Positions 1,577 to 21,057 of a DNA stretch of 23,154 nucleotides are shown one piece after another. Below the pieces are notes generated by a model, which did not search any database, was not told where the DNA came from, and saw only the letters and a list, made by a program, of their open reading frames with translations. Origin of the DNA: a virus; the IMG/VR virus record IMGVR_UViG_3300025617_001068, positions 1 through 23,154 of that record, one strand, 5' to 3'. Position 1 is the stretch's first letter, and each line of letters opens with the position of its first letter. A program made the translations under genes and the position numbers.

Positions 1577-1760
1577 AACACTTGCTGGTATAACAAATCG
1601 TTATACTGGACAAACCGAATACCGTGTAGAAAATATCAGTTACACTGGTATGGAAAAAGCAGAACTACAAAAGAAACACAACATAGAACCAGGAACACCT
1701 GAATGGTTCCAACTCTGGTTTAGTCGTCCTTATTTGACTGGCGAAAAGCCCATAGATTAA
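1557..1760 (+). CDS. Small conserved-looking phage protein of unknown function
   Basis: A 67-residue protein that I cannot assign to a family. The N-terminus (MELEELKTLAGITNRY) looks like a short amphipathic helix. The C-terminal half holds an aromatic-rich stretch, GTPEWFQLWFSRPYLTG, which has the look of a conserved folding or interaction motif. There are no Cys residues, signal peptide or membrane span. Its stop codon (1758-1760) lies inside the promoter-like box of the radical SAM gene, so the two units abut directly. It has coding-like composition and no better competing frame, but function is unknown. Confidence 0.6.
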   Translation: MELEELKTLAGITNRYTGQTEYRVENISYTGMEKAELQKKHNIEPGTPEWFQLWFSRPYLTGEKPID

Positions 1761-1763
1761 ATA
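1756..1763 (+). promoter_or_regulatory. Late-promoter-like box, ATTAAATA, five bases before ATG
   Basis: Shares the TAAATA core of the T4 late box and ends exactly five bases (CCCAC) before the ATG at 1769. No Shine-Dalgarno fits in between. It is one of six sites in the window with this spacing. Confidence 0.5.
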
Positions 1764-1768
1764 CCCAC

Positions 1769-2893
1769 ATGGAAAAGAAATACTGTGCCGCACCTTGGCG
1801 TGGATTGCACATAAACTTTCGCGGAGATGTAAAAACCTGTTGTGCTGGAGATCCTAACATGTTAGGTAACCTAACCACTGACTTTATGGATGATATAATT
1901 CACAGCGATAAGATGCAAGAAATACGAAGCAGTATTAGCAATGGTGTATTGCACCCTGAATACTGCTACAACTGTATACAAGCAGAGCGCAACGGCAGTA
2001 GCGAACGTGATTGGCACAATAACGTAAATCCTGAGTTTGATGCAAGTAAAGCAGGTCCAAACGATCATATACCTACACTAATAGATGTACGTTGGAATAC
2101 AACTTGTAACCTAAGTTGTAACTACTGCGGTCCATATTGTAGCAGTCAGTGGGCGGGGCTTAAAAAAGAATTTGTAGACAATGGTGTTAAACCTTATCAC
2201 TATCATGTAGTAGAGTATATCAAACAGTATGCACACAAAGTAAGAGAAGTAGCACTAGTCGGTGGCGAACCTTTATTACTTAAAGAAAATGTAGAACTAT
2301 TAAACGTACTACACGACCATACTCTTGTTACTGTGATAACAAATGCAACGGTTGATTTAAACAAAAGCATGGTGTTTACATACTTAACATGCCGTAGTAA
2401 TGTTGGGTGGAGTCTTAGTTTTGATAACGTAGGCGAACGTTTTGAGTATGTTAGGCACGGTAGTAGCTGGGATCAGTTGAAGAAAAACGTTAACCGTATT
2501 AAGCATCAAATGAACTACAACGGACACCACGGAGGCATACACGCAGTATACAATATATACAACTGCACTCGTTTAAGAGAGCTAAGAGAGTATGCAGATC
2601 ACAAAGAACTCGACATACTTTGGCAAACACTGTTTCAACCAGAATATCTAGATCCTACAAGACACAATCAATATGTTAGAGATATAGCACTACGAGAAAT
2701 AGAACTGTACGAACAAGAGTACGGCAGTGAGCCATTCTTTGACCATGTTAAAACCAGTTTAAGTGCTATTGCCACGGACAGTGATGTTAGAGAACAGTTT
2801 TGGCAACACATAGAAGATATCGAAAATGTATATCACAAGGATCAAAAAGGTAAGTTTGCTCAACTTTGGCCTGAATTGTTTATGCTAATCTAA
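1769..2893 (+). CDS. Radical SAM protein with N-terminal twitch-like domain
   Basis: A 374-residue protein. Residues 1-75 look like a degenerate SPASM or twitch domain: Cys6 in CAAPW, the Cys24-Cys25 pair, a LGNL stretch and Cys66/Cys69, which could bind an auxiliary iron-sulfur cluster. The radical SAM core follows, with CxxxCxxC at Cys113, Cys117 and Cys120 to hold the 4Fe-4S cluster that cleaves S-adenosylmethionine, and GGEP at 165-168 for SAM binding. Having the twitch part before the core, rather than after it, matches the architecture annotated as twitch domain-containing radical SAM protein in bacteria and phages. The substrate is unknown. SPASM and twitch relatives modify peptides, sugars or cofactors, and the abundance of glycan genes here makes a sugar or protein-modifying role plausible. 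It converges with the HNH gene, overlapping by 14 bases at the ends. Confidence 0.85.
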   Translation: MEKKYCAAPWRGLHINFRGDVKTCCAGDPNMLGNLTTDFMDDIIHSDKMQEIRSSISNGVLHPEYCYNCIQAERNGSSERDWHNNVNPEFDASKAGPNDHIPTLIDVRWNTTCNLSCNYCGPYCSSQWAGLKKEFVDNGVKPYHYHVVEYIKQYAHKVREVALVGGEPLLLKENVELLNVLHDHTLVTVITNATVDLNKSMVFTYLTCRSNVGWSLSFDNVGERFEYVRHGSSWDQLKKNVNRIKHQMNYNGHHGGIHAVYNIYNCTRLRELREYADHKELDILWQTLFQPEYLDPTRHNQYVRDIALREIELYEQEYGSEPFFDHVKTSLSAIATDSDVREQFWQHIEDIENVYHKDQKGKFAQLWPELFMLI

Positions 2894-3410
2894 GTTGTAA
2901 ACCTAAGTAAGTTTCCCAGCTTGGGTGATGAATAGTAACAGCAGTTTGTTTAACATGATTAACCAGTTTCCAGTAGTCTGGGTGTGCTGGCTTTTTGTGC
3001 GGAGTCCAAAGTTTACTGCCTTTTTTGCTGTTACAACTATAACAAGCCGCAACACAATTATCCCAACTTGTTTTTCCGCCACGACTATATGGTATAACGT
3101 GATCTACAGTTAGGTCTTTGGTTGAAAATGTTTCTAGGCAGTATTGGCAGGTATAAAGGTCTCGAAGGAAAAGGTTGTGTTTGGTAAATCTCATTGGCCC
3201 AAGCCGTCGCCTTTTAAAGTTGCTCTTAACAACAACCACAGCAGGCACTTTCATTTCCATCCTAGCACTGTGAATAGTCCAATCTTCGTACCATTCTATA
3301 ACATTGACTTTATCAAGGAAGTGGAGTTTAACGGCTGTTTCCCAACCTATTGTGCTTAACGGTAAGAAGTTTACCGGTTGATAATCTGGTGCTAGTACAA
3401 GAGTGCTCAT
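2880..3410 (-). CDS. HNH endonuclease
   Basis: A 176-residue minus-strand protein with a zinc-supported HNH (beta-beta-alpha-metal) nuclease in its C-terminal half: CQYC at residues 88-91, DHVIPYSRGG beginning at Asp103-His104, Asn118, and CYSCNSKKG supplying Cys123 and Cys126. The N-terminal 80 residues (APDYQPVNFLPLS onward) match the layout of stand-alone HNH proteins common in phages, where they often sit beside the terminase genes. Its position directly before the large terminase suggests a role in DNA packaging or maturation cuts; this is inference. The start is the ATG at 3410. A TTG two codons upstream would add only two residues. It is transcribed opposite to both neighbours. Confidence 0.88.
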   Translation of the reverse strand: MSTLVLAPDYQPVNFLPLSTIGWETAVKLHFLDKVNVIEWYEDWTIHSARMEMKVPAVVVVKSNFKRRRLGPMRFTKHNLFLRDLYTCQYCLETFSTKDLTVDHVIPYSRGGKTSWDNCVAACYSCNSKKGSKLWTPHKKPAHPDYWKLVNHVKQTAVTIHHPSWETYLGLQLRLA

Positions 3411-3417
3411 ACACAAG

Positions 3418-3425
3418 TATTTACC
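3418..3425 (-). promoter_or_regulatory. Late-promoter-like box, GGTAAATA, for the HNH gene
   Basis: Read on the minus strand, GGTAAATA ends seven bases before the ATG of the HNH gene, two more than at the six regularly spaced sites. It lies back to back with the terminase box at 3441-3448. Confidence 0.4.
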
Positions 3426-3440
3426 GTGACAGCAATTTCA

Positions 3441-3448
3441 GATAAGTA
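3441..3448 (+). promoter_or_regulatory. Late-promoter-like box, GATAAGTA, five bases before ATG
   Basis: One mismatch from the NATAAATA form and ends exactly five bases (TTTGC) before the terminase ATG at 3454. There is no Shine-Dalgarno between the box and the start. Confidence 0.5.
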
Positions 3449-3453
3449 TTTGC

Positions 3454-5013
3454 ATGTCAAAAAGCCTAGAAGGTGTACTTGTAAAGAAAGCGTATGCTAA
3501 AGAAAGATACACCGAAGAACAATTAGAAGAGTTTATGAAATGTGCGGATCCTGTAGACGGTCCGTTTTACTTTATGAGCAACTTTTTCTACATTCAGCAT
3601 CCAATGAAAGGCAAGATGCTGTACAAGCCTTTTAAATACCAAGAAAAACTTATCAACACATACCACAAATATAGATTCAGTATCTCAATGATGCCACGGC
3701 AAACCGGTAAATCAACCAGTGCTGCTGGATATCTACTATGGTATGCTATGTTCAAACCAGACAGTACAGTTCTAGTAGCCGCACACAAGTATGCTGGTGC
3801 TCAGGAGATCATGCAACGTGTAAGATATGCTTATGAAAGTTGCCCGGATCATATTAGAGCAGGTGTTACTAGTTACAACAAAGGCTCACTAGAGTTCGAC
3901 AACGGTAGTCGAATAGTAGCACAAACCACAACAGAAAACACTGGACGTGGTATGAGTATCTCGCTACTGTACGCTGACGAATTTGCGTTTGTACGACCTA
4001 CTATTGCAAAAGAATTCTGGACTGCTATTAGCCCTACACTAGCAACTGGTGGTGGAGCTATTATTACAAGCACACCAAACAGTGATGAGGATCAGTTTGC
4101 GTTCTTGTGGAAAGGCGCAAATAAAATGGAAGACTCGCACGGCAACCCAACAGAAGTGGGCATCAACGGTTTTAGAGCATACCGAGCATTTTGGCACGAA
4201 CATCCAGACAGAGATGAAGCATGGGCAAACGAACAACGTGCGGCACTAGGCGAAGATCGTTTCCGTCGTGAAATGGACTGTGAGTTTATCATCAATGACG
4301 AAACACTTATTGCTCCTGCTAAGTTGTTAGATTTACAAGGTGTAGATCCTGCATACAAAACAGGACAAGTGCGTTGGTATAAAACACCAGTGCCTGGAAA
4401 AATATATGCAGTAGGACTAGATCCAAGTTTAGGAACAGGGGGAGATCCTGCAGCTATACAAGTGTGGGAAGCAAATTCAACAGAACAAGTTGCTGAATGG
4501 AAACACAATAAAACAACTATCCCTGAACAAATACGAATACTTGCAGACATCTGCAAAGAAATATCAGCAAAAACAGGTGATAAAAACAGCGTTTACTTTA
4601 GTGTAGAAAATAACACAATCGGCGAAGCCGCATTGATTAGTATTGTGGACTACGGCGAAGAAAGCATACAAGGATATTTTTTAACAGATCCTGCTGGTGC
4701 TGGTAAAAAACGTAAAGGATTTAATACCAGTCACAAGCCTAAACTAGCAGCCTGTGCTAAGTTAAAAAACTTAGTAGAAATGGGCCGCATGAAAATACAC
4801 AGCAAAAGTTTAATCAGCGAATTAAAAAACTTTGTAGCATATGGAACCAGTTATGCCGCAAAACCTGGAGAAACAGATGACTTAGTTATGGCGACTATAC
4901 TTGTATTAAGAATGATGCAGGTGTTACAAAGCTATCACCAAGAACTAGACGGCACAGTGCGGGATCATGAAGATCACAGCGTAGAACCAATGCCGTTTGT
5001 AGCACTATTTTAG
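3454..5013 (+). CDS. terL: Terminase large subunit (T4 gp17 type)
   Basis: A 519-residue packaging motor. The ATPase domain shows Walker A MPRQTGKST around residues 80-88 (Lys86), Walker B LLYADE at 171-176 with catalytic Glu176, and coupling motif TSTP at 205-208. The RNase H-fold nuclease domain shows GLDPSLGTGGD (Asp323), SVENNTIG (Glu385) and ETDDLVMA (Asp475/Asp476), the three acidic positions expected to hold the two metal ions. The enzyme translocates DNA into the prohead and makes the headful cut. It is shorter than T4 gp17 (610 residues), as is usual in marine T4-like phages. No small terminase or tail sheath gene is adjacent, unlike the usual 16-17-18 order. Confidence 0.95.
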   Translation: MSKSLEGVLVKKAYAKERYTEEQLEEFMKCADPVDGPFYFMSNFFYIQHPMKGKMLYKPFKYQEKLINTYHKYRFSISMMPRQTGKSTSAAGYLLWYAMFKPDSTVLVAAHKYAGAQEIMQRVRYAYESCPDHIRAGVTSYNKGSLEFDNGSRIVAQTTTENTGRGMSISLLYADEFAFVRPTIAKEFWTAISPTLATGGGAIITSTPNSDEDQFAFLWKGANKMEDSHGNPTEVGINGFRAYRAFWHEHPDRDEAWANEQRAALGEDRFRREMDCEFIINDETLIAPAKLLDLQGVDPAYKTGQVRWYKTPVPGKIYAVGLDPSLGTGGDPAAIQVWEANSTEQVAEWKHNKTTIPEQIRILADICKEISAKTGDKNSVYFSVENNTIGEAALISIVDYGEESIQGYFLTDPAGAGKKRKGFNTSHKPKLAACAKLKNLVEMGRMKIHSKSLISELKNFVAYGTSYAAKPGETDDLVMATILVLRMMQVLQSYHQELDGTVRDHEDHSVEPMPFVALF

Positions 5014-5020
5014 ATAAATA
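5013..5020 (+). promoter_or_regulatory. Late promoter box, GATAAATA, five bases before ATG
   Basis: Seven of eight bases match TATAAATA. The box begins on the last base of the terminase stop codon and ends exactly five bases (AGAAT) before the ATG at 5026, leaving no room for a ribosome binding site on a transcript started here. Confidence 0.6.
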
Positions 5021-5025
5021 AGAAT

Positions 5026-6486
5026 ATGGCAAGCGAAAATACAACATCACAACAATTATACGATTTATTGGTTAGCAGAGACTTTGATCCTTCTGCTCTC
5101 GACTTAATGGGCAAAGCCGCAGAATCACCTGCAGATGCTGACCTGTTTAGTTTTGAATATAAAACAGCTAACAAAAACTATGGCACAGTTGTAATACTAA
5201 TTGACAGCGATAGTAATATGGAAGTTTACTTTGGTGATAACCTTGGTAAAACTATGGAAGCAGAAGATAAAAAAGATTGGTATGATTTTCTTTATCTAAT
5301 TCGCATGCTTGCTAAACGCAATCTTCTTACATTTAGTTTAAACAATCTTAATAAACTAAAATATAATATGAAAACCATGTCCGCAGTTACGGAAGGCACA
5401 TTACTTGAAGGCTACTATGGCACAAGCAGGACCAGCTACAGTGATCAACCGAAGAAAACAAAACTAGTAATCAAGCACAGTCGTCCTCTTGGTGAAGGCG
5501 AACAACGTTTCAGAAACATCCAAACCCTGTTTGTAGAAACAGAAGAAGGCGAGCGTTTTAAATTGCCATTTACAAATGTAACCGGTGGTAAAGCAATGGC
5601 ACGCCACGTTGCAGAAGGCGGTAAGCCTTACGATGCTTTTGGACAACACATCGCTGAAATGATGGCTGAAATGGCAACACTAAGCAGATTTACACGAGCA
5701 ACAAAAAACAAAACATTCGGCGAAGATGCACAAGCACTAAGTGAACAAGCAGTAGAGCACTACAAAGATTTAAAAAGAAAAGCAAAGCGTATGATTAGTC
5801 GTAGAGGCTACCACGAAGAACTTGAAAATTTTGACCCTATTACAGTAACAGAACTAGAAGAAACAGTGGATGCTGTGCGTGAAATATTCGTACAGCAATC
5901 ATTGGATTCAAGAGTAGAAGACGCATTGCCTATTCTTGCTAAAATACAGGAAACAAACATGAAAGAAATTGATGAGTTTGCTGGTTGGGCAGACAGTGTA
6001 GTAGAAGGAACTGGCCCAATTGCTAGTACACCTGAGGAAATTGCTCAATTAAAAGATATTATGTCTGAACCACTGCTAGTTGGTGCTGATGCGTTGAATG
6101 CTAGCGAAACAATTGGGTTCTTGCTCGGTGGTGATGATCAACTACAAGACGACTTAGATGCATTAGCTGCAAAAGATCCAAATGCAGATGCCCGTCCTGT
6201 AATACAGAGTGCTATTGAGCGTTTGGGTATTGAGCTTGATGAAGCAGCACAAAGTCCTTATGCAATAGGCATGGCCACAGCAATGAAGATGAAAGGGGAT
6301 AAACCACCTCTTAAAAAGTCAACAATTGCAAAAGCTCATGAAATTGCCAAGGCAATCGAAAAAGACGAAGCCAACGAAGAAGTAGAAGAAGTCACAGACA
6401 TCGACACTGGGGAACAAGTTCTTAAAGCAGAGAGAGACCCAATGCTCGAAGATGAGCTTGCGAGTTTACTTAAACTACTAAAATGA
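5026..6486 (+). CDS. Conserved T4-like marine phage protein, function unknown
   Basis: A 486-residue soluble protein without a signal peptide or membrane span. The N-terminal 130 residues look folded and aromatic (FSFEYKTANKNYGTVV, then VYFGDNLGKTMEAEDKKDWYDFLYLIRMLAKRNLL). The middle has KKTKLVIKHSRPLGEGEQR and a long, mostly helical stretch rich in Glu, Ala and Lys. The C-terminus is acidic and likely coiled or extended. From memory, closely similar hypothetical proteins occur in T4-like cyanophages, but I know no function. Its stop overlaps the ATG of the next gene (ATGA at 6483). Placement between the terminase and a glycosyltransferase, with a late-type box, suggests late expression. Confidence 0.75.
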   Translation: MASENTTSQQLYDLLVSRDFDPSALDLMGKAAESPADADLFSFEYKTANKNYGTVVILIDSDSNMEVYFGDNLGKTMEAEDKKDWYDFLYLIRMLAKRNLLTFSLNNLNKLKYNMKTMSAVTEGTLLEGYYGTSRTSYSDQPKKTKLVIKHSRPLGEGEQRFRNIQTLFVETEEGERFKLPFTNVTGGKAMARHVAEGGKPYDAFGQHIAEMMAEMATLSRFTRATKNKTFGEDAQALSEQAVEHYKDLKRKAKRMISRRGYHEELENFDPITVTELEETVDAVREIFVQQSLDSRVEDALPILAKIQETNMKEIDEFAGWADSVVEGTGPIASTPEEIAQLKDIMSEPLLVGADALNASETIGFLLGGDDQLQDDLDALAAKDPNADARPVIQSAIERLGIELDEAAQSPYAIGMATAMKMKGDKPPLKKSTIAKAHEIAKAIEKDEANEEVEEVTDIDTGEQVLKAERDPMLEDELASLLKLLK

Positions 6487-7340: not shown

Positions 7341-7362
7341 TTTTACCAAAATACGTCGACAT

Positions 7363-7370: not shown

Positions 7371-7377
7371 AGATTGT

Positions 7378-10616: not shown

Positions 10617-11069
10617 ATGTGGTATAATAAGGTAGTTGCTGACTTAGGTAAAATTCCTGACTTCATTGCACATTATGAAGCAGAGCTACAACAAGCAAAG
10701 AATGAATGCCGTGTCGGGGGTTATGTTGAACGTAACATTAAAGAGTTGCCTGGACTAACCGAGCATCGTTTCAATCAACTTCAAGAGATTGAAGCAGTGC
10801 TTAACTACCTTAATATTCAGTTGCGTAAAATACGTCGTAAACATTTTCAAAAATATCTCGAAGGATATGCCCGAGCACTCAGCAGTCGCGACGCTGAAAA
10901 GTATGTAGACGGGGAAGATGAGGTCATTGATTTTGAAACAATTATTAACGAAGTAGCTCTACTTCGTAACAAGTTTCTTGGTGTAATGAAGGGATTCGAT
11001 AGCAAAAACTTCATGATGGGACACATTGTTCGACTAAGAACTGCTGGCATGGAAGATGTACAGGTATAA
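10617..11069 (+). CDS. uvsY: UvsY, recombination mediator
   Basis: A 150-residue helical, mixed-charge protein. The core RKHFQKYLEGYARALSSRDAEKYVDGE, followed by NEVALLRNKFLGVMKGFDSKNF and VRLRTAG, matches the pattern of UvsY from T4-like marine phages. T4 UvsY (137 residues) forms hexamers, binds ssDNA and helps UvsX displace gp32. All three partners lie within 3.6 kb here (gene 32, uvsX, uvsY), which supports the call. The ATG lies two bases after the previous stop. The gene closes the replication and recombination block; the next gene has its own late-type box. Confidence 0.85.
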   Translation: MWYNKVVADLGKIPDFIAHYEAELQQAKNECRVGGYVERNIKELPGLTEHRFNQLQEIEAVLNYLNIQLRKIRRKHFQKYLEGYARALSSRDAEKYVDGEDEVIDFETIINEVALLRNKFLGVMKGFDSKNFMMGHIVRLRTAGMEDVQV

Positions 11070-11072
11070 CTA
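11065..11072 (+). promoter_or_regulatory. Late-promoter-like box, TATAACTA, five bases before ATG
   Basis: One mismatch from TATAAATA. It overlaps the uvsY stop codon and ends exactly five bases (ACTGT) before the ATG at 11078. It would head the operon running from 11078 to about 15371. Confidence 0.5.
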
Positions 11073-11077
11073 ACTGT

Positions 11078-11836
11078 ATGAAATACAGTAGTTTTGCAAG
11101 TTCAGTAAAAAGCCACGAACATAGCTTACAGACACTAAATCTACTTTACGAATATGACGATTTTATGGAAAGCATAGGTCGTATGGTAGATCTAGGGTGC
11201 GGCGAATCTGGCTTAGATTTAGAATGGTGGGCAACCCGAACCACTAGAGGCGAAGAACAAATACCTCTTAATATACAATGTGTAGGAACCGACCTGTTTT
11301 CTGGTCTTTCGTTAGATTACAATAATGTTTCTTATCAGAAGTTAGACATTAGCACATACGATAAAACCAAAAGAGGATTTGATGTGTTGTGGTGTCACGA
11401 CACATTTCAATATCTATTAAATCCTTATCATGCACTAAAAAGTTGGTACAACATTTCTAACACCAATGGCATGCTAGTGCTAATATTACCTCAAACAACC
11501 AACATGGAATACAATACTCAAGCATTTGATTTACCGCCAGGGCACATGTATAACTACACTATACCTAGTTTAATTTACATGCTTGCTGTAAATGGGTGGG
11601 ACTGTCGTGACGGGTTTTTTAAGAAAGAGCCCGGTGATCCTTGGTTGCATGCTATTGTTTATAAAAGTAACATTGAACCAATGGATCCGAGTGTAACCAG
11701 CTGGTATGAATTAATGGAAAAGAACTTGCTACCCGAAACAGCAGATGCGAGCATTTTAAAATATGGAAAACTTAGACAACGTGATTTGGTATTGCCTTGG
11801 CTAGATAAATCAAATATGTGGATGGCACAACAGTGA
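11078..11836 (+). CDS. Class I SAM-dependent methyltransferase
   Basis: A 252-residue protein with a Rossmann methyltransferase core. Motif I, MVDLGCGESG, is at residues 36-45. An acidic strand end, CVGTDLFSG, likely contacts the SAM ribose, LDIS resembles motif III, and FDVLWCHDTFQYLLNP matches motif IV. The pattern is of the Methyltransf_11/23 group that acts on small molecules or sugars rather than DNA, since no DNA methylase DPPY or NPPY is present. It is first in the glycan operon, and its stop overlaps the probable GTG start of the glycosyltransferase downstream (GTGA). O- or N-methylation of a sugar intermediate is the likely role, inferred from neighbours. Confidence 0.82.
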   Translation: MKYSSFASSVKSHEHSLQTLNLLYEYDDFMESIGRMVDLGCGESGLDLEWWATRTTRGEEQIPLNIQCVGTDLFSGLSLDYNNVSYQKLDISTYDKTKRGFDVLWCHDTFQYLLNPYHALKSWYNISNTNGMLVLILPQTTNMEYNTQAFDLPPGHMYNYTIPSLIYMLAVNGWDCRDGFFKKEPGDPWLHAIVYKSNIEPMDPSVTSWYELMEKNLLPETADASILKYGKLRQRDLVLPWLDKSNMWMAQQ

Positions 11837-12540
11837 AAACAAAAGCATTTTTAAAAATTGACAGAATGGATGCAAGCGGTGTATTGTGTTTGCGTTTCTG
11901 GCTAGAAGTATTTAAAAAATACGAAACATACATACTCTGTGACAGAGAAACTGATCTATTAGACACAGTGCAAACAGACTATCCACATGCTAAACTAATC
12001 TCCAGTGATAGAACTGTCATCGCTGAATGCTGTACTACACTTAAAAGTTCAAAACGAAACATGGCCGCGGCTAATCTAACTGGATTTAAGTTGAGTCAAA
12101 ATGCAGATGCTTTCTGGATGATTGATGCAGACGATACTATGTTTTTAACAAGACGTTTTGACATACTGGAAACCAAATTCCAAGAAGCAGAACGTATTTT
12201 TGAGGAACAGAAGTTTGATGCATTTAGTTTAGACTTTTATAGAAACCTAAACGGGGGTTGGACATTCGGCGTTGCACTAATGCGTAGCAGTTTGCCTTAT
12301 CAACGTATACTAGAAGTCGACGGTCCAGACATGGTAGACTTGGGATATGCTAGGAATATCGACAGCGCATTTCATGTACTAGGTGATAGAGGTATTATCA
12401 AACGTGGCAACTTTGTTTTTAACAAAATGGCATTCCAACATTTGCACAACAATTATCCACTGATGCCCGAAGGGGTATACTACTGGAGCGCAAAACATTT
12501 GTGGGACGTTCCGCTACAACCAGATGTAATCTCAATATGA
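11833..12540 (+). CDS. Glycosyltransferase-like protein with IDADD motif
   Basis: A 235-residue protein if started at the GTG at 11833, which overlaps the methyltransferase stop as GTGA; another GTG at 11818 would add five residues. The frame has no ATG near its beginning. Residues 95-103 read FWMIDADDT, with Asp98-x-Asp100 placed like the metal-binding DxD of GT-A enzymes. C-terminal features include NGGWTFGVALMRSSLPY and paired His-Asn residues (FQHLHNNYP) that could complete a metal or acceptor site. The fold is probably GT-A; donor and acceptor are unknown. The stop overlaps the next gene's ATG (ATGA at 12537), so translation is coupled on both sides. Confidence 0.65.
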   Translation: MKTKAFLKIDRMDASGVLCLRFWLEVFKKYETYILCDRETDLLDTVQTDYPHAKLISSDRTVIAECCTTLKSSKRNMAAANLTGFKLSQNADAFWMIDADDTMFLTRRFDILETKFQEAERIFEEQKFDAFSLDFYRNLNGGWTFGVALMRSSLPYQRILEVDGPDMVDLGYARNIDSAFHVLGDRGIIKRGNFVFNKMAFQHLHNNYPLMPEGVYYWSAKHLWDVPLQPDVISI

Positions 12541-14048
12541 ATATAATTGTACAAGCAGGTGGCAGAGGCAGTAGACTTAGACATCACACTTGGAACAAAC
12601 CCAAGTGTTTGGTGAGTGTTCGCGGCAAGCCTATCTTGTATCATTTGTTTGACCGGTTTCCAGATGCTAAATTCTATGTTATCGGCGACTACCATTATGA
12701 TCAACTTGAAAACTATCTAAACAGCAACGACCCGGGTGTTGATTATACACTAATAAAAGCAAGCGGCAGTGGAACATCGAGTGGTGTAGCACAAGCTGCA
12801 AATACAATTCATCCTAGTGAACCGGTAATGTTGATTTGGAGCGATATTATTGTAAACGAGTTTGAATACCCAGAATCGGGATCAACGGTTGTGTACACCA
12901 CAGATGCATTTACTTGTAGATGGAGCTACACCGGAGAACGCTTAGTCGAGGAAACAAGTCACACCACAGGCATTCCTGGTATATTTTATTTCCGCGGACC
13001 AGTTACATTGCAAAATGCTCCGGTCACTGGAGAATTCACACGTTGGTTTAGTGAAACAGTTAAACAATACACAACAAAAAACATTAGCACTGTGGAAGAA
13101 CTCGGCGATTTTGCTACAATCGAAAACGATAACGACAGCGTAGGCTTTTGTAGATTCTTTAATAGTGTAGAAGTACATGATTGCACCGTAACTAAACAAG
13201 CAATCGATCCCGAGTACAAACATCTTATTGCTAATGAAGTTGAATGGTATCAAAAAGTTGAACATCTCGGTTTTAAACGCATACCCGAAATACTAGAGTA
13301 TCCGCCATTGGTGATGACTCGTGTTAAAGGAAACCACGTTTGGGAACACGAAAATCTCAGTGAACTAGAACAGCGTAGTTTACTAGCAGACATACTTTAC
13401 ACACTCCAAGACTTGCACAGTCGAGGACGTAGTACAGCACTAGTCGGCGATGTATATGAAGTATACATTGAGAAAACAAAACAAAGAGTACAAAGTGTTA
13501 GTAGCCTTATCCCAGGATTTGACAGAGATAGCGTTACCGTCAACGGAGTGAAGTGTCCTAACATATTTCACAATAAACATAAACACTTGTGGGACACAAT
13601 TGAAAAGAATGTCCAAGCAGATCACTTTACGCCAATACACGGTGATCCTACATTTAGTAATACACTGATTGATCAAAATCTCAAATGCTGGTTCATTGAT
13701 CCACGCGGATACTTTGCACACGATAATGATATCAATGGGGATCCTGACTACGACTTTGCTAAAGTGTATTACAGTGCTGTAGGCGGATACGATACATTTA
13801 ATAGGCGCAAATTTAAACTGTACGCCGATGGCGAAACTGCTGAAATTATTATGGCAGAACCAAACACCGCAAATGTAGCAGAAACGGTTTTTGAAGAATT
13901 TTTTCCAGAAAACCTTACTAAAATCAAAATATTACACGGACTAATCTGGCTAGCTCTTAGTGGATATGCTAAAGATGACATTGATAGTGTAATTGGTAGT
14001 TTCTATCTTGGTTTGTATTATTTAAAACAAGGATTGGACAGATTATGA
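12537..14048 (+). CDS. Fusion: nucleotidyltransferase plus choline-kinase-like kinase
   Basis: A 503-residue two-domain enzyme. Residues 1 to about 210 form a sugar-phosphate or phosphocholine-type nucleotidyltransferase: QAGGRGSRL at 6-14 and NKPKCLVSVRGKPILYHL just after are the NTP-binding and lysine motifs, and WSDI is the metal-binding Asp region. Residues from about 225 to 503 form an aminoglycoside-phosphotransferase or choline-kinase fold: a Lys in TVTKQA, then HGDPTFSN from His368 with catalytic Asp370, and IDPRG at 387-391 as the metal motif. One polypeptide could phosphorylate a small molecule and then activate it with a nucleotide, like LicA plus LicC in phosphocholine decoration. 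The ATG at 12537 is preferred to a frame extension from 12501 because it overlaps the previous stop and begins the beta strand MNIIVQAGG. Confidence 0.85.
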   Translation: MNIIVQAGGRGSRLRHHTWNKPKCLVSVRGKPILYHLFDRFPDAKFYVIGDYHYDQLENYLNSNDPGVDYTLIKASGSGTSSGVAQAANTIHPSEPVMLIWSDIIVNEFEYPESGSTVVYTTDAFTCRWSYTGERLVEETSHTTGIPGIFYFRGPVTLQNAPVTGEFTRWFSETVKQYTTKNISTVEELGDFATIENDNDSVGFCRFFNSVEVHDCTVTKQAIDPEYKHLIANEVEWYQKVEHLGFKRIPEILEYPPLVMTRVKGNHVWEHENLSELEQRSLLADILYTLQDLHSRGRSTALVGDVYEVYIEKTKQRVQSVSSLIPGFDRDSVTVNGVKCPNIFHNKHKHLWDTIEKNVQADHFTPIHGDPTFSNTLIDQNLKCWFIDPRGYFAHDNDINGDPDYDFAKVYYSAVGGYDTFNRRKFKLYADGETAEIIMAEPNTANVAETVFEEFFPENLTKIKILHGLIWLALSGYAKDDIDSVIGSFYLGLYYLKQGLDRL

Positions 14049-14395
14049 TACCATTTGAATTAAGCACAAATCTAGGACACACTTGGTTCTTTGACTTGGA
14101 TGGTACTATACTAAAGCATAACGGGCTTTGGGAAGACGGGTACGATACGGTATTACCTGGTGTTAAAGAACTGTGGGCTAGTATACCACAGGACGACATG
14201 ATTATCATCACTACAGCTCGTCGGGAAATGTGGCGAGAAGATGTAATACAATGCTTGAAACAAAATCACATACGCTACGACTATTTGTTGTTTGGGATAA
14301 GACACGGAGAACGTATAGTAGTAAATGATGAAAAGCCTGGTGGGTTGCAAACAGCAATAGCATGGAATGTTAAACGTGACGCTGGATTTAAGTGA
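14045..14395 (+). CDS. Small HAD-superfamily phosphatase
   Basis: A 116-residue minimal HAD hydrolase. Motif I, FFDLDGTIL, supplies nucleophile Asp17 and general acid Asp19. Motif II is IITTAR. The C-terminal GERIVVNDEKPGG supplies the acidic motif IV. There is no large cap domain, which suits phosphosugars or other accessible phosphates. It overlaps the nucleotidyltransferase-kinase gene as ATGA and is followed by a KpsC-like gene. A HAD phosphatase beside an HldE-like nucleotidyltransferase recalls GmhB in the ADP-heptose pathway, but GmhB is longer and has zinc-binding cysteines not seen here, so the parallel is only suggestive. Confidence 0.83.
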   Translation: MIPFELSTNLGHTWFFDLDGTILKHNGLWEDGYDTVLPGVKELWASIPQDDMIIITTARREMWREDVIQCLKQNHIRYDYLLFGIRHGERIVVNDEKPGGLQTAIAWNVKRDAGFK

Positions 14396-15371
14396 GAAGT
14401 TACAGGTCGTAACATTCACACCCGGGCCCTATAACTATCATTTTCCTTTGCCATTGGCACCAAATTTTAAAATTGTCCAGGCAAAAAAACGTCCCCCGTT
14501 TGATCGAGACACACAAAAGATTGTAGAAAACGCTGACATATATTTGCTTGAAAACAATCCAGATTATAATAAAACAAAAAGAAAATACGCCTGGATATTT
14601 GATATAGTTGAGAACTCAGGCAAACCGTGGATTGTAACCGAAGGCCCTTTGTTCAGAAAAAATCACGTTAAAGCACCATGGCAGGGCAGTTACTATCGAT
14701 GGAGTTGGTATAGTTATTTTAGAGATAAAGGAAATTACTGCAATGCTAACAGTCCTGGTGATAGATGGAAACGCATACAACAAGAACAAAATATTACAAT
14801 ACATAATTGGAAAAAAGATCGCGGAGATTACATATTATTCATGATGCAACGTCCTGGTGATACCAGTTTAGGTCCTGCTATTGATCAATATGGAAACTAT
14901 GGTAATTTTATTTTTAGAACAATACAACGTATAAGACTAAAAACAGATCGTCCAATTCGCATACGCTTGCATCCGCAAAATCATAATGCACAACTTCCTT
15001 TACTGAAAAACATATTAAAATATAAAAACGTAAGTATTAGTGACGGAACAGAACAAATACAGCATAAAAGTGTCGAAGGCGGTGATAACTTAGAAAAAGA
15101 TATCTTAGGAGCTTGGGCAGTAGTAGGACTTAACAGTAACAGTTTAACTGAAAGTTGTTGCTTGGGAATCCCAACTTGGAGTTTACACCCTAGCAGCATG
15201 GCATGGGAAGCAAGTCACACTGATCTCAATCAACTTGAATATCCAAATCTACACATTGATAGAACACAATGGTTGTACAACTTAGGATACACTCAATGGA
15301 GACAAGACGAAGTAATCGCTGGATTGCCATTTAAACACTTGTTAAAAGAATGGAACAGCATTAACGGCTAA
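14367..15371 (+). CDS. KpsC/capsule-synthesis-like glycosyltransferase, copy 1
   Basis: A 334-residue protein with a GT-B-like C-terminal half. Key features are GDYILFMMQRP (strand and nucleotide-side loop), PIRIRLHPQ (conserved Arg and His), AWAVVGLNSNSLTESCCLGIPTW (the Asn-Ser-rich loop and helix near the donor site), then DRTQWLYNLGYTQWRQDEV. The same series recurs at 16718 (C-terminal part), 18378 and 21060. The pattern resembles capsular polysaccharide synthesis proteins of the KpsC/LipB type, which add beta-Kdo. The ATG at 14367 overlaps the HAD gene by 29 bases; I see no better in-frame start. Exact sugar and linkage are unknown. Confidence 0.7.
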   Translation: MLNVTLDLSEKLQVVTFTPGPYNYHFPLPLAPNFKIVQAKKRPPFDRDTQKIVENADIYLLENNPDYNKTKRKYAWIFDIVENSGKPWIVTEGPLFRKNHVKAPWQGSYYRWSWYSYFRDKGNYCNANSPGDRWKRIQQEQNITIHNWKKDRGDYILFMMQRPGDTSLGPAIDQYGNYGNFIFRTIQRIRLKTDRPIRIRLHPQNHNAQLPLLKNILKYKNVSISDGTEQIQHKSVEGGDNLEKDILGAWAVVGLNSNSLTESCCLGIPTWSLHPSSMAWEASHTDLNQLEYPNLHIDRTQWLYNLGYTQWRQDEVIAGLPFKHLLKEWNSING

Positions 15372-15379
15372 TATAAATA
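15372..15379 (+). promoter_or_regulatory. T4-type late promoter (TATAAATA), five bases before ATG
   Basis: Exact late-promoter consensus just after the stop of the KpsC-like gene. It ends exactly five bases (TCTGC) before the ATG at 15385, so a T4-style start would fall on the A of the ATG. Confidence 0.7.
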
Positions 15380-15384
15380 TCTGC

Positions 15385-16158
15385 ATGAAAATCGTACTAG
15401 TATCAGGTGGATTTGATCCACTACATTCCGGGCATATCAAGTTATTCCAGGAAGCAAAAGCACTTGGTGATCGACTTGTTGTTGGTGTCAACAGCGACGC
15501 CTGGCTTACACGCAAAAAGGGAAGACCTTTCATGCCTCTTAGCGAAAGAGCTGAGGTTATTCGTGCATTAAGCATGGTAGATGCTGTAGTAGCATTTGAA
15601 GACGACTATGATGCTGACGGTAGTTGTCGACGTTTTATTGAGGATTCGTGTTGGAACTATGAAGAAGATGAAGTTGTATTTGCTAACGGCGGAGACCGGA
15701 ATGATGGCAACATACCTGAAATGGAAGTTATTGCTGAAAATCTTAGTTTTGAATTTGGCATTGGCGGCACAGACAAAGCTAACAGCAGTAGTTGGATACT
15801 TGAGGAATGGAAAGCACCAAAAACTGAACGTCCGTGGGGATACTATAGAGTCCTACATGAAGAACCAGGAATTAAAGTAAAAGAACTTGCAGTAAATCCT
15901 GGAAAAAGCCTTAGCAATCAAAGACATTTGCACAGAAGTGAATATTGGTTGGTGAGTGAAGGCGAAGCTACAGTGGATTATCAGCGACATCATAATTGGA
16001 ATACACAAATAACTAACAAGTTCAAACAACATCAAGCCTTGGATATTCCTTGTAAAACATGGCACAGACTGTATAACGATACAGACAAACCTGTAAGAAT
16101 TGTAGAAATACAATACGGCGATGATTGTCGCGAAGAAGACATTGAGAGAAAACAATGA
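15385..16158 (+). CDS. Fusion: HldE/RfaE-like nucleotidyltransferase plus cupin
   Basis: A 257-residue two-domain enzyme. Residues 1-145 form a cytidylyltransferase-like domain: GGFDPLHSGH at 8-17 carries the HxGH nucleotide motif, LGDRLVVGVNSD and RPFMPLSERAEVIRAL closely follow the adenylyltransferase half of HldE (RfaE), GGD lies near 102-104, and a Ser-rich GGTDKANSSSWIL replaces the usual ISTT motif. Residues 149-257 form a cupin like type II mannose-6-phosphate isomerase: RPWGYY, then HLHRSEYW with His181, His183 and Glu186, and His227 in PCKTWHRLY as likely metal ligands. The cupin is usually fused to GDP-mannose pyrophosphorylase, so this pairing is odd. A role in making an ADP- or CDP-activated sugar is inferred. 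The stop overlaps the next ATG. Confidence 0.85.
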   Translation: MKIVLVSGGFDPLHSGHIKLFQEAKALGDRLVVGVNSDAWLTRKKGRPFMPLSERAEVIRALSMVDAVVAFEDDYDADGSCRRFIEDSCWNYEEDEVVFANGGDRNDGNIPEMEVIAENLSFEFGIGGTDKANSSSWILEEWKAPKTERPWGYYRVLHEEPGIKVKELAVNPGKSLSNQRHLHRSEYWLVSEGEATVDYQRHHNWNTQITNKFKQHQALDIPCKTWHRLYNDTDKPVRIVEIQYGDDCREEDIERKQ

Positions 16159-16721
16159 CAGAATTACCCGAACATCTAGGCGGACATAGCGGTAAAACAC
16201 ACATAGACAAAGGTGCTCTAGGTTGGTTTACCGAAATGGGATTCAGTAGTTTCCTTGATGTAGGGTGCGGCCCAGGCGGAATGGTGCACCAAGCTGAAAT
16301 ACAAGGATTTGATAGTTTTGGCATAGATGGCGATTTTACACTAGAAAGATATAATCCAGAACGTTTTCTAATACATGATTTTACAACCGGACCTGTTAGC
16401 TTAGATAGAACGTTCGACGTATGTTGGTGCGTTGAATTTGTAGAGCATGTATACGCTGAATATATACTTAATTTTGCAGTAGCATGGCAACAGTGTAAAA
16501 ATTTAGCAATGACACATGCAACACCTGGGCAAGGTGGATATCATCATGTTAACGAACAGCCTAAAGAATACTGGATTGATGTGTTAGATCAATATGGCTT
16601 TGATTATAGCGAAAGCATGACAGAAGAACTTAAACTTCGAACTACAATGAACACTCACAAAAAGCCCAAGAAGGCATTTGTAAGAAACAATGGATTATAT
16701 TTTAAGAACAGAAACCTATGA
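16155..16721 (+). CDS. Class I SAM-dependent methyltransferase
   Basis: A 188-residue small-molecule methyltransferase. Motif I, FLDVGCGPGG, lies near residues 33-42. FGIDGDFTLE supplies the acidic residue after the second strand, and FDVCWCVEFVEHV is a typical post-motif stretch with a conserved His in Methyltransf_11 proteins. The segment HATPGQGGYHHVNEQPKEYW contains paired His residues that often line the acceptor pocket of sugar methyltransferases. The ATG overlaps the stop of the HldE-cupin gene and its own stop overlaps the next start (ATGA both times). It is therefore one link of a tightly coupled operon and most likely methylates a sugar made or attached by its neighbours. Confidence 0.85.
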   Translation: MTELPEHLGGHSGKTHIDKGALGWFTEMGFSSFLDVGCGPGGMVHQAEIQGFDSFGIDGDFTLERYNPERFLIHDFTTGPVSLDRTFDVCWCVEFVEHVYAEYILNFAVAWQQCKNLAMTHATPGQGGYHHVNEQPKEYWIDVLDQYGFDYSESMTEELKLRTTMNTHKKPKKAFVRNNGLYFKNRNL

Positions 16722-18388
16722 CACAACAACCGTTTAACATTTATATAGGCTGGGATAGCAGAGAACCAATTGCCGCTGATGTGCTAAAACACAGTATCGA
16801 AAAACATACCAGTGTGCCAGTAAACATAATTTATTTGCAACAAGAAAAACTTCGCGACGCAGGATTATACTGGCGTGAAGTTGATCAACTTGCTAGCACA
16901 GAGTTTACATTTACACGTTTTCTTGTTCCTTATCTAAACAATTATGAAGGGCATGCTATTTTTGTAGATTGCGATTTTTTAGCAATAGCAGATTTAGCAG
17001 AGCTTATTAACAGCGCAGATCCTAAAAAAGCCGTCCAGGTTGTTCAACACGACTACACACCTCCTGAAGGTGTAAAAATGGATGGACAAAAGCAATATCC
17101 ATACCCACGCAAAAACTGGTCAAGTATGATACTGTGGAATTGCGGCCACAAAGATAACAAGAAGGTAGACTTAGAATTTGTCAATACAGCAACAGGACAA
17201 GAACTACATAGATTTACCTGGCTTAAGGACAAAGATATTGGTGACCTACCACCTGAATGGAATTGGCTAGTGGGTTGGTACAGAGAGATTAGAGACGGAT
17301 ATCCTAAGTGGATTCACTACACACTTGGCGGTCCATGGTTCAATGAGTGGCAAGATTGTGAATACGCTGATCTGTGGCTAGCAGCTGAAGCTGAAGTAAT
17401 TGAAGCAAAAAAGCTACCGCGGGTAATAACTGAAAAGGATCTAATATTACCCGAAAATCTCCTCAATCTAGTTAAAAACTTACTCGAAGGACGCCGAGAT
17501 CCTAAACATTATTGGCACGAGGGCAATGTAGCCGAAGTAATAGAAAAAATTAACTATGTACGCAAGCCTACATGCATGGCACTTATTGATGCTGACCCTG
17601 AAAATCCACCCGAAGGACAAGTAAAAATGGATCCTATTGTTGACAACTTTATAATTGGTGCCGACGGAGTCATCGGCATGAGCAAAGACACCGGTAATAT
17701 ACCTCTAGAAGTTCCTGCTGTCATACGTGGTATTGCAAAACGCAAAGTAATACAACGTTGCAAGGAAGAAGGAAGAGATTGGTATTATATTGATACTGGT
17801 TATTTTGGCAATGGTAAAACTAAACTGTATCACAGAATTACTCGTAACAACATGCAATACACCGGAAAGATTCACGAAAATTGCCCCGACGATAGATTTG
17901 TGCAAACAGGTGTAACACTAACAAAATATAGACCTGGAGACTGTATACTGGTTTGTCCACCAAGTCAAAAGGCTATGAATTACTGGGGATTGGATTTACA
18001 AGAATGGCTTAAAATCACAGTAGACGATATCAAAAAGCATACAGATCGTCCAGTTGTGATAAGAGAAAAGGCAGGTAGAGATGTTCGTGTTAATCATGAC
18101 ACAATGGAAATGGCACTTAACCGAAACGTACACTGTATGGTCACATTTAACAGTATTGCTGCTGTAGAAAGTTTAATCTATGGTAAGCCAGTGTTCACAA
18201 TGGGCCCAACGGGAACTAATGCCGCTGAACCGTTGAGCAATACAGATTTAGCAAATATCGACAATCCGTTTATGCCAAGCATGGACGAAGTAAGAAACTT
18301 GCTGTGCAATCTAGCATATCAACAATTTACCGTACACGAAATGCGCAGTGGCTACGCATGGGAACGCCTGAATAACAATGTCTTTTAA
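16718..18388 (+). CDS. Two-domain glycosyltransferase: GT-A (GT8-like) plus KpsC-like, copy 2
   Basis: A 556-residue protein. Residues 1 to about 240 resemble family 8 glycosyltransferases: NIYIGWDSREPIAADVLKHSI at the start, a metal-binding Asp84-Cys-Asp86 in IFVDCDFLA, and a later HYTLGGPWFNEW stretch giving the conserved His and Gly-Gly region. After a linker, residues from about 280 carry the second copy of the KpsC-like domain: GDCILVCPPSQ, LDLQEWLKITVDDI, RPVVIREKAG and VTFNSIAAVESLIYGKPVF. Here the usual HP after the Arg strand is replaced by KAG. Two catalytic domains in one chain suggest two successive sugar transfers on the same acceptor. Start and stop overlap the neighbouring genes. 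Confidence 0.78.
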   Translation: MTQQPFNIYIGWDSREPIAADVLKHSIEKHTSVPVNIIYLQQEKLRDAGLYWREVDQLASTEFTFTRFLVPYLNNYEGHAIFVDCDFLAIADLAELINSADPKKAVQVVQHDYTPPEGVKMDGQKQYPYPRKNWSSMILWNCGHKDNKKVDLEFVNTATGQELHRFTWLKDKDIGDLPPEWNWLVGWYREIRDGYPKWIHYTLGGPWFNEWQDCEYADLWLAAEAEVIEAKKLPRVITEKDLILPENLLNLVKNLLEGRRDPKHYWHEGNVAEVIEKINYVRKPTCMALIDADPENPPEGQVKMDPIVDNFIIGADGVIGMSKDTGNIPLEVPAVIRGIAKRKVIQRCKEEGRDWYYIDTGYFGNGKTKLYHRITRNNMQYTGKIHENCPDDRFVQTGVTLTKYRPGDCILVCPPSQKAMNYWGLDLQEWLKITVDDIKKHTDRPVVIREKAGRDVRVNHDTMEMALNRNVHCMVTFNSIAAVESLIYGKPVFTMGPTGTNAAEPLSNTDLANIDNPFMPSMDEVRNLLCNLAYQQFTVHEMRSGYAWERLNNNVF

Positions 18389-19301
18389 TTATGATGTACA
18401 AGTGTGTTTAGGCACACTACCCAAGATCAAAAATCATAATCTTAAAGTACAGATTATGAGAGCATTTGCTGACGGCGCAGAACGTGCTGGAGCAAGAGTC
18501 GTTGTTACAGAAGATCGTAGTTTTCAAAATGTTCGACTAGCAGTAATGATTGGTTGGGTTGGCATGAATTTTAGTGGGCCGCACATATATTATCGTCGAG
18601 ATTTGATCGAACATCAAAAACGAATCGGCGGAAAAATAATGAGCATTGACGGTAGTTGTTTTAAATTTACTCACAGTGGCGACATGTGGCTACGATACAG
18701 TTTGGACAGTGTGTTCTGGAACGAAGGCGAATATGCTAATCACAACAGCGATAGTTCGCATTGGAACGCAATTAGTAGCAGTCTAAATTTGCAAATGAAA
18801 CCCTGGCGTACAAATGGTGATCATATATTAATTTGCTTACAACGAGATAGTGGATGGAACGCTAAAGGATTCGATCAACAAGCGTGGTTAAACAAAACTG
18901 TAAAAATTATTAGAAGTCAATCAGTTCGCCCTATTAGAGTACGCCCTCATCCTGCTAACAAATTAGATTGGACTAAAATTACACAAAACTACGATAACAT
19001 CGTTATTTCTAACAGTGCAGTTACTACATTAGAGCAGGATTTGCAAAACGCATGGGCTGGTGTATTTTACAATAGCAGTAGCAGTGTTGCGGCAGTGTTA
19101 GAAGGTGTTCCTGTATTTGTAAGTGACGAAGGTGCAGTCACGTACGATATTGCAAACTATACCACAAGAGATATTGAAGGTCCTCGTATGCCTGACAGAC
19201 AGCAGTGGTTGTGGGATTTAAGTCAAGCACACTGGAATATAGAACAAAGTCGTAACGGCGACATTTACCGGCACTTTGACCCTTTCTTACCACCAGCTTA
19301 A
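18378..19301 (+). CDS. KpsC/capsule-synthesis-like glycosyltransferase, copy 3
   Basis: A 307-residue paralogue of the domain at 14367. The N-terminal half (VQIMRAFADGAERAGARVVVTEDRS) looks like the first Rossmann half of a GT-B enzyme. The C-terminal half has GDHILICLQRDSGW, FDQQAWLNKTVKII, RPIRVRPHP, then AWAGVFYNSSSSVAAVLEGVPVFVSD and DRQQWLWDLSQAHWN. The spacing of Arg-His-Pro, Asn-Ser-Ser, Gly-Val-Pro and the closing Trp-Leu-Trp matches the other copies. The ATG overlaps the preceding stop by 11 bases. Its end converges with the minus-strand membrane protein gene, overlapping by 15 bases. Donor and acceptor unknown. Confidence 0.72.
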   Translation: MSFNYDVQVCLGTLPKIKNHNLKVQIMRAFADGAERAGARVVVTEDRSFQNVRLAVMIGWVGMNFSGPHIYYRRDLIEHQKRIGGKIMSIDGSCFKFTHSGDMWLRYSLDSVFWNEGEYANHNSDSSHWNAISSSLNLQMKPWRTNGDHILICLQRDSGWNAKGFDQQAWLNKTVKIIRSQSVRPIRVRPHPANKLDWTKITQNYDNIVISNSAVTTLEQDLQNAWAGVFYNSSSSVAAVLEGVPVFVSDEGAVTYDIANYTTRDIEGPRMPDRQQWLWDLSQAHWNIEQSRNGDIYRHFDPFLPPA

Positions 19302-19568
19302 CGCTCGGCCAAATCCAAACACATTTATACAACTAAAGTAAAAAGTAAGCAACATAATCCATGCTGCTCCTCTACGCCAACTTGCATAAACTTGTGTTAC
19401 AGCACCTACAAAAAATCCTGGATAAACATATCTCATATCAGGGTTGTCTGCGTGTATAGCAAGATATAAACTAGCTGCCACAGTAAATACAAAGCTCACT
19501 AATTCAAAATAAAATGCAATATGATCGCTATGATAACTTTGCAACCAAAAGTCTTTGACGGTTTGCAT
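19287..19568 (-). CDS. Small membrane protein, three predicted spans
   Basis: A 93-residue protein with three hydrophobic segments: about residues 22-40 (ELVSFVFTVAASLYLAIHA), 47-63 (YVYPGFFVGAVTQVYAS), and 68-90 (GAAWIMLLTFYFSCINVFG). Arg-Arg-Gly lies between the second and third spans, and the N-terminus is soluble. It is probably an inner-membrane protein of the host. I do not recognise the family with confidence, although similar short membrane proteins occur in T4-like marine phages. The ATG follows directly on the stop of the FkbM methyltransferase gene, so it is the last gene of a three-gene minus-strand operon. Anchoring or transport of a lipid-linked glycan is a contextual guess. Confidence 0.7.
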   Translation of the reverse strand: MQTVKDFWLQSYHSDHIAFYFELVSFVFTVAASLYLAIHADNPDMRYVYPGFFVGAVTQVYASWRRGAAWIMLLTFYFSCINVFGFGRALSWW

Positions 19569-20219
19569 TTACCAGCCTAATATAACGTCGTGGCGCACAC
19601 GAGCTAATTCTCGAGCACCCCAACTTTTAATAAGTTCAGCGGCGTCAAATTGTGTTTCAAGAGTTTTACCGGTGTCTTCGTGTAGTTTTTGTTCTACAAC
19701 CATAACCGGGCGGCAACGTTTAATAGTTTCTTCTGCGCCTCGAACAATAGGTAACTCGTAACCTTCGCAGTCAATTTTAATATATCCTACATCTTGCAAG
19801 TTCATGCTGTCTAATCTGCGCATAGGTATACTGCCTGAACCTACAGTGTTTTGATCGACATGGCTGTGTCCGGTATTACCTTCTGTAATAACCATTTCGA
19901 TTGTGGTATCCGTTTCTCCTAATGCACAACTTTCAATTTGCAATGCGGCGTGATGAACATTCTTCTTTAAGCAATCTCTGAATTGTGCCACAGGTTCAAA
20001 TGCAATAACAGTTTCGAATGTATTACACAAGTCTCTGCTCCACAATCCAATATTAGCGCCAATGTCTAATGCAACTTTTCTATTGTTAACAAAGATTAAA
20101 CTGCGTTTTCTAACTGGTTCTTGATAAACAGGTTGATTACCTTTAGCAATATTTTTATCTAGCATTTCACAAAAATGAGTATCTTCGTCTGGAAACCACC
20201 AGCCGTGCTTAGTGTACAT
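19569..20219 (-). CDS. FkbM-family methyltransferase
   Basis: A 216-residue SAM-dependent methyltransferase. Motif I, ALDIGANIGLW, is at about residues 50-60; VIAFEPVAQF at 71-80 is the FkbM-type acidic loop; and YIKIDCEGYELPIVRGAEE at 146-164 is the hallmark FkbM signature. Members usually O-methylate sugars or polyketide and glycolipid intermediates. A strong Shine-Dalgarno, AGGAGG (minus strand, 20224-20229), sits inside the end of the upstream gene, four bases before the ATG, and the ATG directly follows that gene's TAA. Of the starts in the window this has the strongest ribosome binding site, so it is expected to be well translated. Confidence 0.9.
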   Translation of the reverse strand: MYTKHGWWFPDEDTHFCEMLDKNIAKGNQPVYQEPVRKRSLIFVNNRKVALDIGANIGLWSRDLCNTFETVIAFEPVAQFRDCLKKNVHHAALQIESCALGETDTTIEMVITEGNTGHSHVDQNTVGSGSIPMRRLDSMNLQDVGYIKIDCEGYELPIVRGAEETIKRCRPVMVVEQKLHEDTGKTLETQFDAAELIKSWGARELARVRHDVILGW

Positions 20220-21044
20220 TTAGCCTCCTAGTACCTGTCGCCAATAAGGATGATCAGTGTGCAATCTCACTTCTTTGGCTTTACTGTGTCCGCGATTCTT
20301 TCTGTCGCCTTTCATATGATCCAAGTAAGCACCTAGCTCGCTGTTGATAAATGGATGCCCTGCAAGGCCTTTCGTATCTGGCTCTGGATTTAAATCTTGG
20401 AACACTGCACCTTTTTCTCGAAATTCTTTTCTGACAATATCCCAAATGTAACTGTCGTGCCATTCTTTGTAGTTGAATATTTCGTCTGTTATATACATTT
20501 CAGCAAATCTTTTTGCAAAGTTTACAGCATGGTTACCCGCTTTGTGGTATCCGACCCAACCACATTCACTGTGGTAATTGTCTGTACGACCCAAAAAAGA
20601 AAAGTCACTGTTATCAGGGCATACTCTGGCAAGTGCTTCTGACGGAATAGGACTGTGTGTTTTGCTGTCAGCATCTAACCAAATGATCCATTCACTATCG
20701 ATATTTTCGAGAGCATGTTGTACAGCAAATACTTTGTAGCAAAATCTCACAGCTTGCCATTTAAAACTTTTCTTTTCTGTCCACATACCTTCATTGTGCG
20801 GTCCAAGCCCGCCATGTGCTTCTGGATTGTCTCTGTGGCGTTTTACAAAACGTTTGCACTCTTTATTAGCACCAAGTAAGTCTACTACACGAACGTTTGG
20901 CTTGGTAGTTTGAGGATTGCAGTTTTCTGTATAAACTACCAGATCAACTGAATCTGGCCAATATTGCTCGAAAGTGTCTATCATTGTCTGGCCGTATAAT
21001 TCTAGCCCGGCTTGATGAAAAGTGGTAATTACAGTATATTTCAT
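20220..21044 (-). CDS. GT-A-fold glycosyltransferase
   Basis: A 274-residue protein beginning MKYTVITTFHQAGLELYGQ, the first strand and loop of a GT-A domain. WIIWLDADSKT near residues 119-129 gives Asp124-Ala-Asp126 as the metal-binding motif. HSECGWVGYHKAG and WHDSYIWDIV follow, the latter likely part of the acceptor site, and a His near the C-terminus (HTDHPYW) could be the third metal ligand. The start is placed at the ATG at 21044, not at an in-frame codon at 21092. The exact late box TATAAATA lies five bases before the 21044 ATG, and the 21092 extension would run into the divergent gene at 21060. Confidence 0.8.
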   Translation of the reverse strand: MKYTVITTFHQAGLELYGQTMIDTFEQYWPDSVDLVVYTENCNPQTTKPNVRVVDLLGANKECKRFVKRHRDNPEAHGGLGPHNEGMWTEKKSFKWQAVRFCYKVFAVQHALENIDSEWIIWLDADSKTHSPIPSEALARVCPDNSDFSFLGRTDNYHSECGWVGYHKAGNHAVNFAKRFAEMYITDEIFNYKEWHDSYIWDIVRKEFREKGAVFQDLNPEPDTKGLAGHPFINSELGAYLDHMKGDRKNRGHSKAKEVRLHTDHPYWRQVLGG

Positions 21045-21049
21045 GTGAG

Positions 21050-21057
21050 TATTTATA
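21050..21057 (-). promoter_or_regulatory. T4-type late promoter (TATAAATA), minus strand, five bases before ATG
   Basis: Reads TATAAATA on the minus strand and is followed by five bases (CTCAC) and the ATG at 21044. It lies inside the 15-base space between the two divergent start codons at 21044 and 21060. Confidence 0.7.

Follow-up and report, generated by a model that had tools for sequence, protein, structure and literature searches.

Late promoter boxes a few bases before start codons point to leaderless late mRNAs in uncultured T4-like phages

The window analyzed here is a 23,154-nucleotide stretch (IMG/VR record IMGVR_UViG_3300025617_001068, positions 1 to 23,154), a 23 kb fragment of an uncultured phage of the T4 superfamily. 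Several of its genes carry a box resembling the T4 late promoter so close to the start codon that an mRNA initiated there would be leaderless. A gp17-like terminase and a UvsX/UvsY/gp32 cluster place the phage among the jumbo members of the T4 superfamily (the PA5oct/window clade). Among isolates, the Pseudomonas jumbo phages of the PA5oct group have the most similar terminase (54% identity), and the nearest public contigs, in records of up to 342 kb, share 72-96% terminase identity.

Six boxes were found exactly where the original prediction had placed them, each ending five bases before an ATG (spacing 5), and the two described as perfect late boxes (TATAAATA) are indeed perfect (15372-15379 on the plus strand, 21057-21050 on the minus strand). 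Four of the six contain TAAATA, one reads GATAAGTA and one TATAACTA. TAAATA at spacing 5 occurs four times in the window against 0.04 expected from the far-upstream sequence of the same starts (P about 1e-7). TAAATA also stands at spacing 7 before a seventh gene, which starts at 3410 on the minus strand and encodes an HNH protein. The features are listed below together with two boxes located farther upstream of their genes, which have a Shine-Dalgarno (SD) sequence in the leader.

1756-1763, plus: late box ATTAAATA, spacing 5 to ATG 1769; orthologues leaderless in 17 of 31 assessable cases
1769-2893, plus: radical SAM/SPASM protein (Pfam Radical_SAM and SPASM), predicted leaderless
3418-3425, minus: late box GGTAAATA, spacing 7 to ATG 3410; orthologues leaderless in 17 of 19, mostly at spacing 5
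2880-3410, minus: HNH endonuclease domain protein, predicted leaderless
3441-3448, plus: late box variant GATAAGTA, spacing 5 to ATG 3454; variant retained in many relatives
3454-5013, plus: terminase large subunit, predicted leaderless; orthologues leaderless in 34 of 79 assessable cases, with a leadered box in 8
5013-5020, plus: late box GATAAATA, spacing 5 to ATG 5026; orthologues leaderless in 78 of 80 (spacing 4-7)
5026-6486, plus: virion structural protein (family match to phrog_13484), the gene after the terminase, predicted leaderless
11065-11072, plus: late box variant TATAACTA, spacing 5 to ATG 11078 (methyltransferase); the weakest of the set
15372-15379, plus: perfect late box TATAAATA, spacing 5 to ATG 15385; orthologues leaderless in 6 of 11 assessable cases
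15385-16158, plus: cytidylyltransferase/cupin protein (Pfam CTP_transf_like and mannose-6-phosphate isomerase C-terminal domain), predicted leaderless
21050-21057, minus: perfect late box TATAAATA, spacing 5 to ATG 21044; only three assessable orthologues
20220-21044, minus: protein of unknown function (no Pfam match), predicted leaderless
912-919, plus, for contrast: leadered box TATAAATA, 37 bases before ATG 957 (nuclease), SD sequence AAGGAG in the leader
22618-22623, plus, for contrast: leadered TAAATA, 25 bases before ATG 22649, SD-like AAGGA in the leader

The TAA of the box at 1756-1763 is at the same time the stop codon of the upstream open reading frame (ORF) 1557-1760. For the box at 11065, the orthologous gene was compared in 27 relatives, and none of them had it. 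Between 3410 and 3454 the HNH and terminase genes diverge, with predicted leaderless promoters back to back within 43 bases. A leadered class had been proposed for the genes at 957, 7467 and 22649; good boxes bear this out at 957 and 22649, and the case of gene 32 (7467) is weak, since the closest TAAATA lies 96 bases upstream.

Comparing box-to-start distances among relatives had been suggested as a check. In 80 related contigs, window included, genes were called by a simple longest-ORF method and candidate ATGs were checked within the first 50 codons. Since orthologous genes are not independent, gene-family counts and several distant genomes were used as well. TAAATA preceded an ATG at spacings 4, 5, 6 and 7 in 35, 92, 24 and 56 cases, respectively, and the hits at spacing 5 span 20 gene families. 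The distance ranges from four to seven, and the "exactly five bases" of the original prediction is its mode. The distribution is bimodal: the near peak at 4-7 is followed by a nearly empty zone at 8-14 and a second rise at 17-23, within a leadered class that extends from 15 to 40 bases before the ATG. No other permutation of the TAAATA letters reached more than 13 hits at spacing 5. When over-represented hexamers at -11 to -6 were sought de novo in the clade, TAAATA ranked first, followed by SD-like words, TAAGTA and TAACTA. Across the clade the latter two occur at spacing 5 in 16 cases (0.56 expected) and 9 cases (0.74 expected).

Genes of the two box classes differ in features that are independent of the box itself. 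In the window clade an SD sequence precedes 5% of the 98 near-box genes, 79% of the 157 leadered genes and 40% of the 1296 genes with no box (near versus leadered, Fisher P 4e-34). The base at -1 is a pyrimidine in 89%, 57% and 47% of the three groups, and the strand switches upstream in 42%, 30% and 17% (near versus no box, Fisher P 4e-17 and 2e-8, respectively). At spacing exactly 5, C or T stands at -1 in 51 of 53 genes (96%); together with the ATG this makes the pyrimidine-purine context that transcription from the A would call for. Near boxes occur at 90 of 1843 ATG sites, 5 of 554 GTG sites and 2 of 760 TTG sites, whereas leadered boxes precede all three codons. A lack of SD sequences and a preference for AUG over GUG and UUG are what leaderless genes should display, the AUG preference being a known trait of leaderless initiation in E. 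coli (PMC9031893). Downstream SD-led in-frame starts were rejected as the true starts, as only 3 of the 98 near-box genes have one.

The box geometry agrees with what is known of the sigma factor. In T4, the adenines that gp55 touches lie at -12, -9 and -8 relative to the start site (PMC7892883); for TATAAATA at spacing 5 to offer the right letters there, +1 would have to be the A of the ATG. Nine of the 11 clade records (G001-G008 and G010) contain a member of the gp55 family, so that these relatives combine an 8-bp TATAAATA-like -10 box with a phage-encoded sigma factor of the T4 late type. Of the T4 promoter-reading residues, almost all of these homologues retain N13, R57, F86, Y97 and T99 (N13 is not scorable in G005 because the gp55 start is uncertain), while L54 is replaced by Y and H95 by F. 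The homologues lie in open frames of 302-320 codons, compared with 185 amino acids in T4, and in the aligned sequences a long stretch without counterpart in T4 gp55 is inserted close to the N-terminus.

The near class is widespread but not universal among T4-like phages. Five large relatives carry 12-27 near boxes each. In the T4 genome TAAATA is found 4-7 bases before the ATG of no called gene and 15-39 bases before that of 39; Syn9 has 0 near and 26 leadered boxes, and the Phosso and phiM12 stretches have no near box and 9 and 4 leadered ones, respectively. PA5oct has 2 near boxes, a number within chance, and 57 leadered; Atu_ph07 has 5 and 82. Among the IMG/VR relatives of PA5oct and Phosso the near class is common too, and around pelagiphage HTVC008M it is weaker but present. 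A terminase tree contains a branch of 139 rows, PA5oct among them, in which no sampled neighbourhood is without a near box. Counting TAAATA N4-7 ATG in whole records against the reversed pattern gave no excess in T4, 121Q, CBB, Phosso or Syn9. The same count gave 108 versus 3 in G017 and 67 versus 0 in G015 (500 and 578 kb, 57-59% GC); both have dozens of boxes mainly four or five bases before the ATG, often as CTAAATA. The cultured HTVC008M has 13 near-box genes, 11 of them at spacing 5, with boxes that mostly read ATAAATAG followed by four bases and the ATG. An SD sequence precedes 15% of them and 70% of its leadered genes, and the starts at 18916 (minus) and 18943 (plus) form a divergent pair, both predicted leaderless. 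SRB7757 was rejected as another cultured example, because no near-box genes remained once genes were called.

Taken together, these data very probably mean that late promoters of the gp55 type yield leaderless mRNAs for a subset of late genes and leadered, SD-bearing mRNAs for others. The boxes would be T4-type late promoters read by a gp55-like sigma factor on the host RNA polymerase. For a large subset of late genes the initiating nucleotide would be the A of the ATG or a base within about two of it, and the resulting mRNA would require leaderless (5'-AUG) initiation; for the remaining late genes that box would lie 15-40 bases upstream, followed by a leader of the usual kind with an SD sequence. 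The core of the original prediction is thus strongly supported by the relatives, through the bimodal spacing, the anti-correlation with SD sequences, the -1 pyrimidine, the restriction to ATG, the strand-switch enrichment, the gp55 residues and the conservation of the leaderless state at orthologues. What we infer from these patterns is binding of the box by gp55, a transcription start at the A and translation beginning on a 5'-terminal AUG.

Some observations weigh against this interpretation. The record of the window itself contains no gp55 gene in its 23 kb. The position of the box and the -1 bias would place +1 at the A of the ATG, roughly a helical turn beyond the box; leadered promoters, however, lack a sharp pyrimidine-purine step at the predicted start. 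Downstream of their box the purines are enriched over too broad a stretch, and locating the start site from leadered promoters alone was rejected for this reason. G017 and G015 prefer spacing 4 and do not follow the -1 pyrimidine rule at that spacing, so the start-site model is not uniform. Many near-box genes lie close behind a gene on the same strand and may also be read from upstream. Finally, TAAGTA and TAACTA peak at spacing 5 and, unlike TAAATA, are hardly enriched at leadered distances (G001, G002, G003, G006 and the window), a confinement that a pure promoter view does not explain.

The last two points are also arguments for a different reading, in which the near TAAATA is an AU-rich, SD-independent ribosome-binding element in an mRNA that starts further upstream; near-box genes without an SD sequence would, after all, need another initiation signal. 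We consider this improbable. The same hexamer 15-40 bases upstream of a gene with a full SD sequence cannot act as a ribosome binding site, and the zone between the two positions is nearly empty. The near position coincides with T4 promoter geometry, genes at strand switches are enriched in the near class, and a pyrimidine at -1 is expected for a transcription start site, while we know of no ribosome binding site that would demand it. Still less probable is translational coupling or reinitiation from the upstream gene, with the TAA of the box serving as that gene's stop codon. The upstream stop does fall within two window boxes (1758-1760 and 11067-11069) and, across the clade, within the box of 13 of the 57 near-box genes that follow a gene on the same strand. 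However, for 41 of the 98 near-box genes the gene upstream is divergent, which makes coupling impossible, and these 41 show the same spacing, the same lack of SD sequences and the same -1 bias; coupling is ruled out for these genes and rejected as a general cause, and other TAA-containing permutations are not comparably enriched. Coincidence in AT-rich DNA, or an artefact of the way start codons were chosen, might have been invoked given the few cases in the window alone and the simple gene caller, but at the window P value, without such a peak for permuted hexamers or reversed patterns, and with the GC-rich G017 and G015 records, its probability is negligible, and it is already refuted by the relatives.

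The functional division that had been drawn, with leaderless mRNAs for terminase and modification genes and leadered ones for virion protein, nuclease and gene 32, is not supported by our data. The predicted leaderless gene at 5026 belongs to a virion structural family and has leaderless orthologues in nearly all relatives, and portal, neck-type and many small genes are leaderless there as well. The orthologues of gp32 and UvsX are never leaderless and mostly have an SD sequence, and those of the nuclease at 957 retain box and SD or SD, with none leaderless. Moreover, whether a given gene is leaderless or leadered can differ between phages. Given the mixed content of both classes, they do not divide into modification and virion genes.

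The gene run at 11078-22612, between the replication/recombination genes and gene 22649, looks like a glycan-modification cluster. Among its products are two methyltransferases and two fusion proteins, one joining nucleotidyltransferase and APH kinase (12537-14048), the other cytidylyltransferase and mannose isomerase (15385-16158).

Two late translation regimes, in which leaderless mRNAs would suit ribosomes altered during infection (e.g. by phage bS21 or by reduced SD-led initiation) and give phage-selective late protein synthesis, are a speculative extension that we hold to be rather unlikely. HTVC008M encodes ribosomal protein bS21. Genes for bS21 occur in 5 of 11 clade records (G001, G003, G007, G009 and G011) and also in PA5oct, Atu_ph07 and Phosso, phages with few or no near-box genes; for this reason no association between leaderless genes and bS21 is claimed.

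The observation is real and probably adds a new form to T4-type late transcription. Searches of the open-access literature turned up no earlier description of leaderless late messages in T4-like phages, which is not proof of novelty. If true, leaderless translation would be a routine expression route for terminase, portal and other virion genes, and its role in infection becomes testable in the cultured HTVC008M. The short spacing also supplies a simple sequence rule by which late promoters, and the right start codons, can be located in phages that have not been cultured. Applied to pelagimyophages, the methods that had served for cyanophages did not reveal late promoters (PMC7029224), a failure that placement near the start may explain.

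Among known systems, bacterial leaderless mRNAs (mycobacteria, Deinococcus) and lambda cI share the 5'-terminal AUG (predicted here), the missing SD sequence and the AUG preference seen in E. coli (PMC9031893); in the window clade, however, such mRNAs would come from a phage-encoded class of late promoters and would serve terminase, portal and virion genes. A further parallel is with the huge phages that have few SD sites and encode bS21 or S1: they too are large, come from the environment, show altered initiation signals and often have bS21 (PMC7162821, PMC9723584). Where promoters lie is not the subject of that work, which deals with ribosomal proteins and a general loss of SD sites, and the window clade keeps SD sequences on its leadered genes and has bS21 in just some of its records. 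The NATAAATA late promoters of the cyanomyoviruses S-PM2 and Syn9 share the box family and gp55 (PMC2984593), but Syn9 has leadered boxes only. The same is true of T4, whose gp55/gp33/gp45-dependent late promoters (TATAAATA) are otherwise alike in box sequence, in the promoter-reading residues of gp55, in their use on both strands and in the late-type genes they serve (PMC2988020, PMC7892883). The phages described here differ from these leadered systems: a widespread group of environmental T4-like phages seems to have shifted the same promoter onto the start codon of many late genes. T4 late transcription itself is a textbook system, with late messages that carry leaders and Shine-Dalgarno sites.

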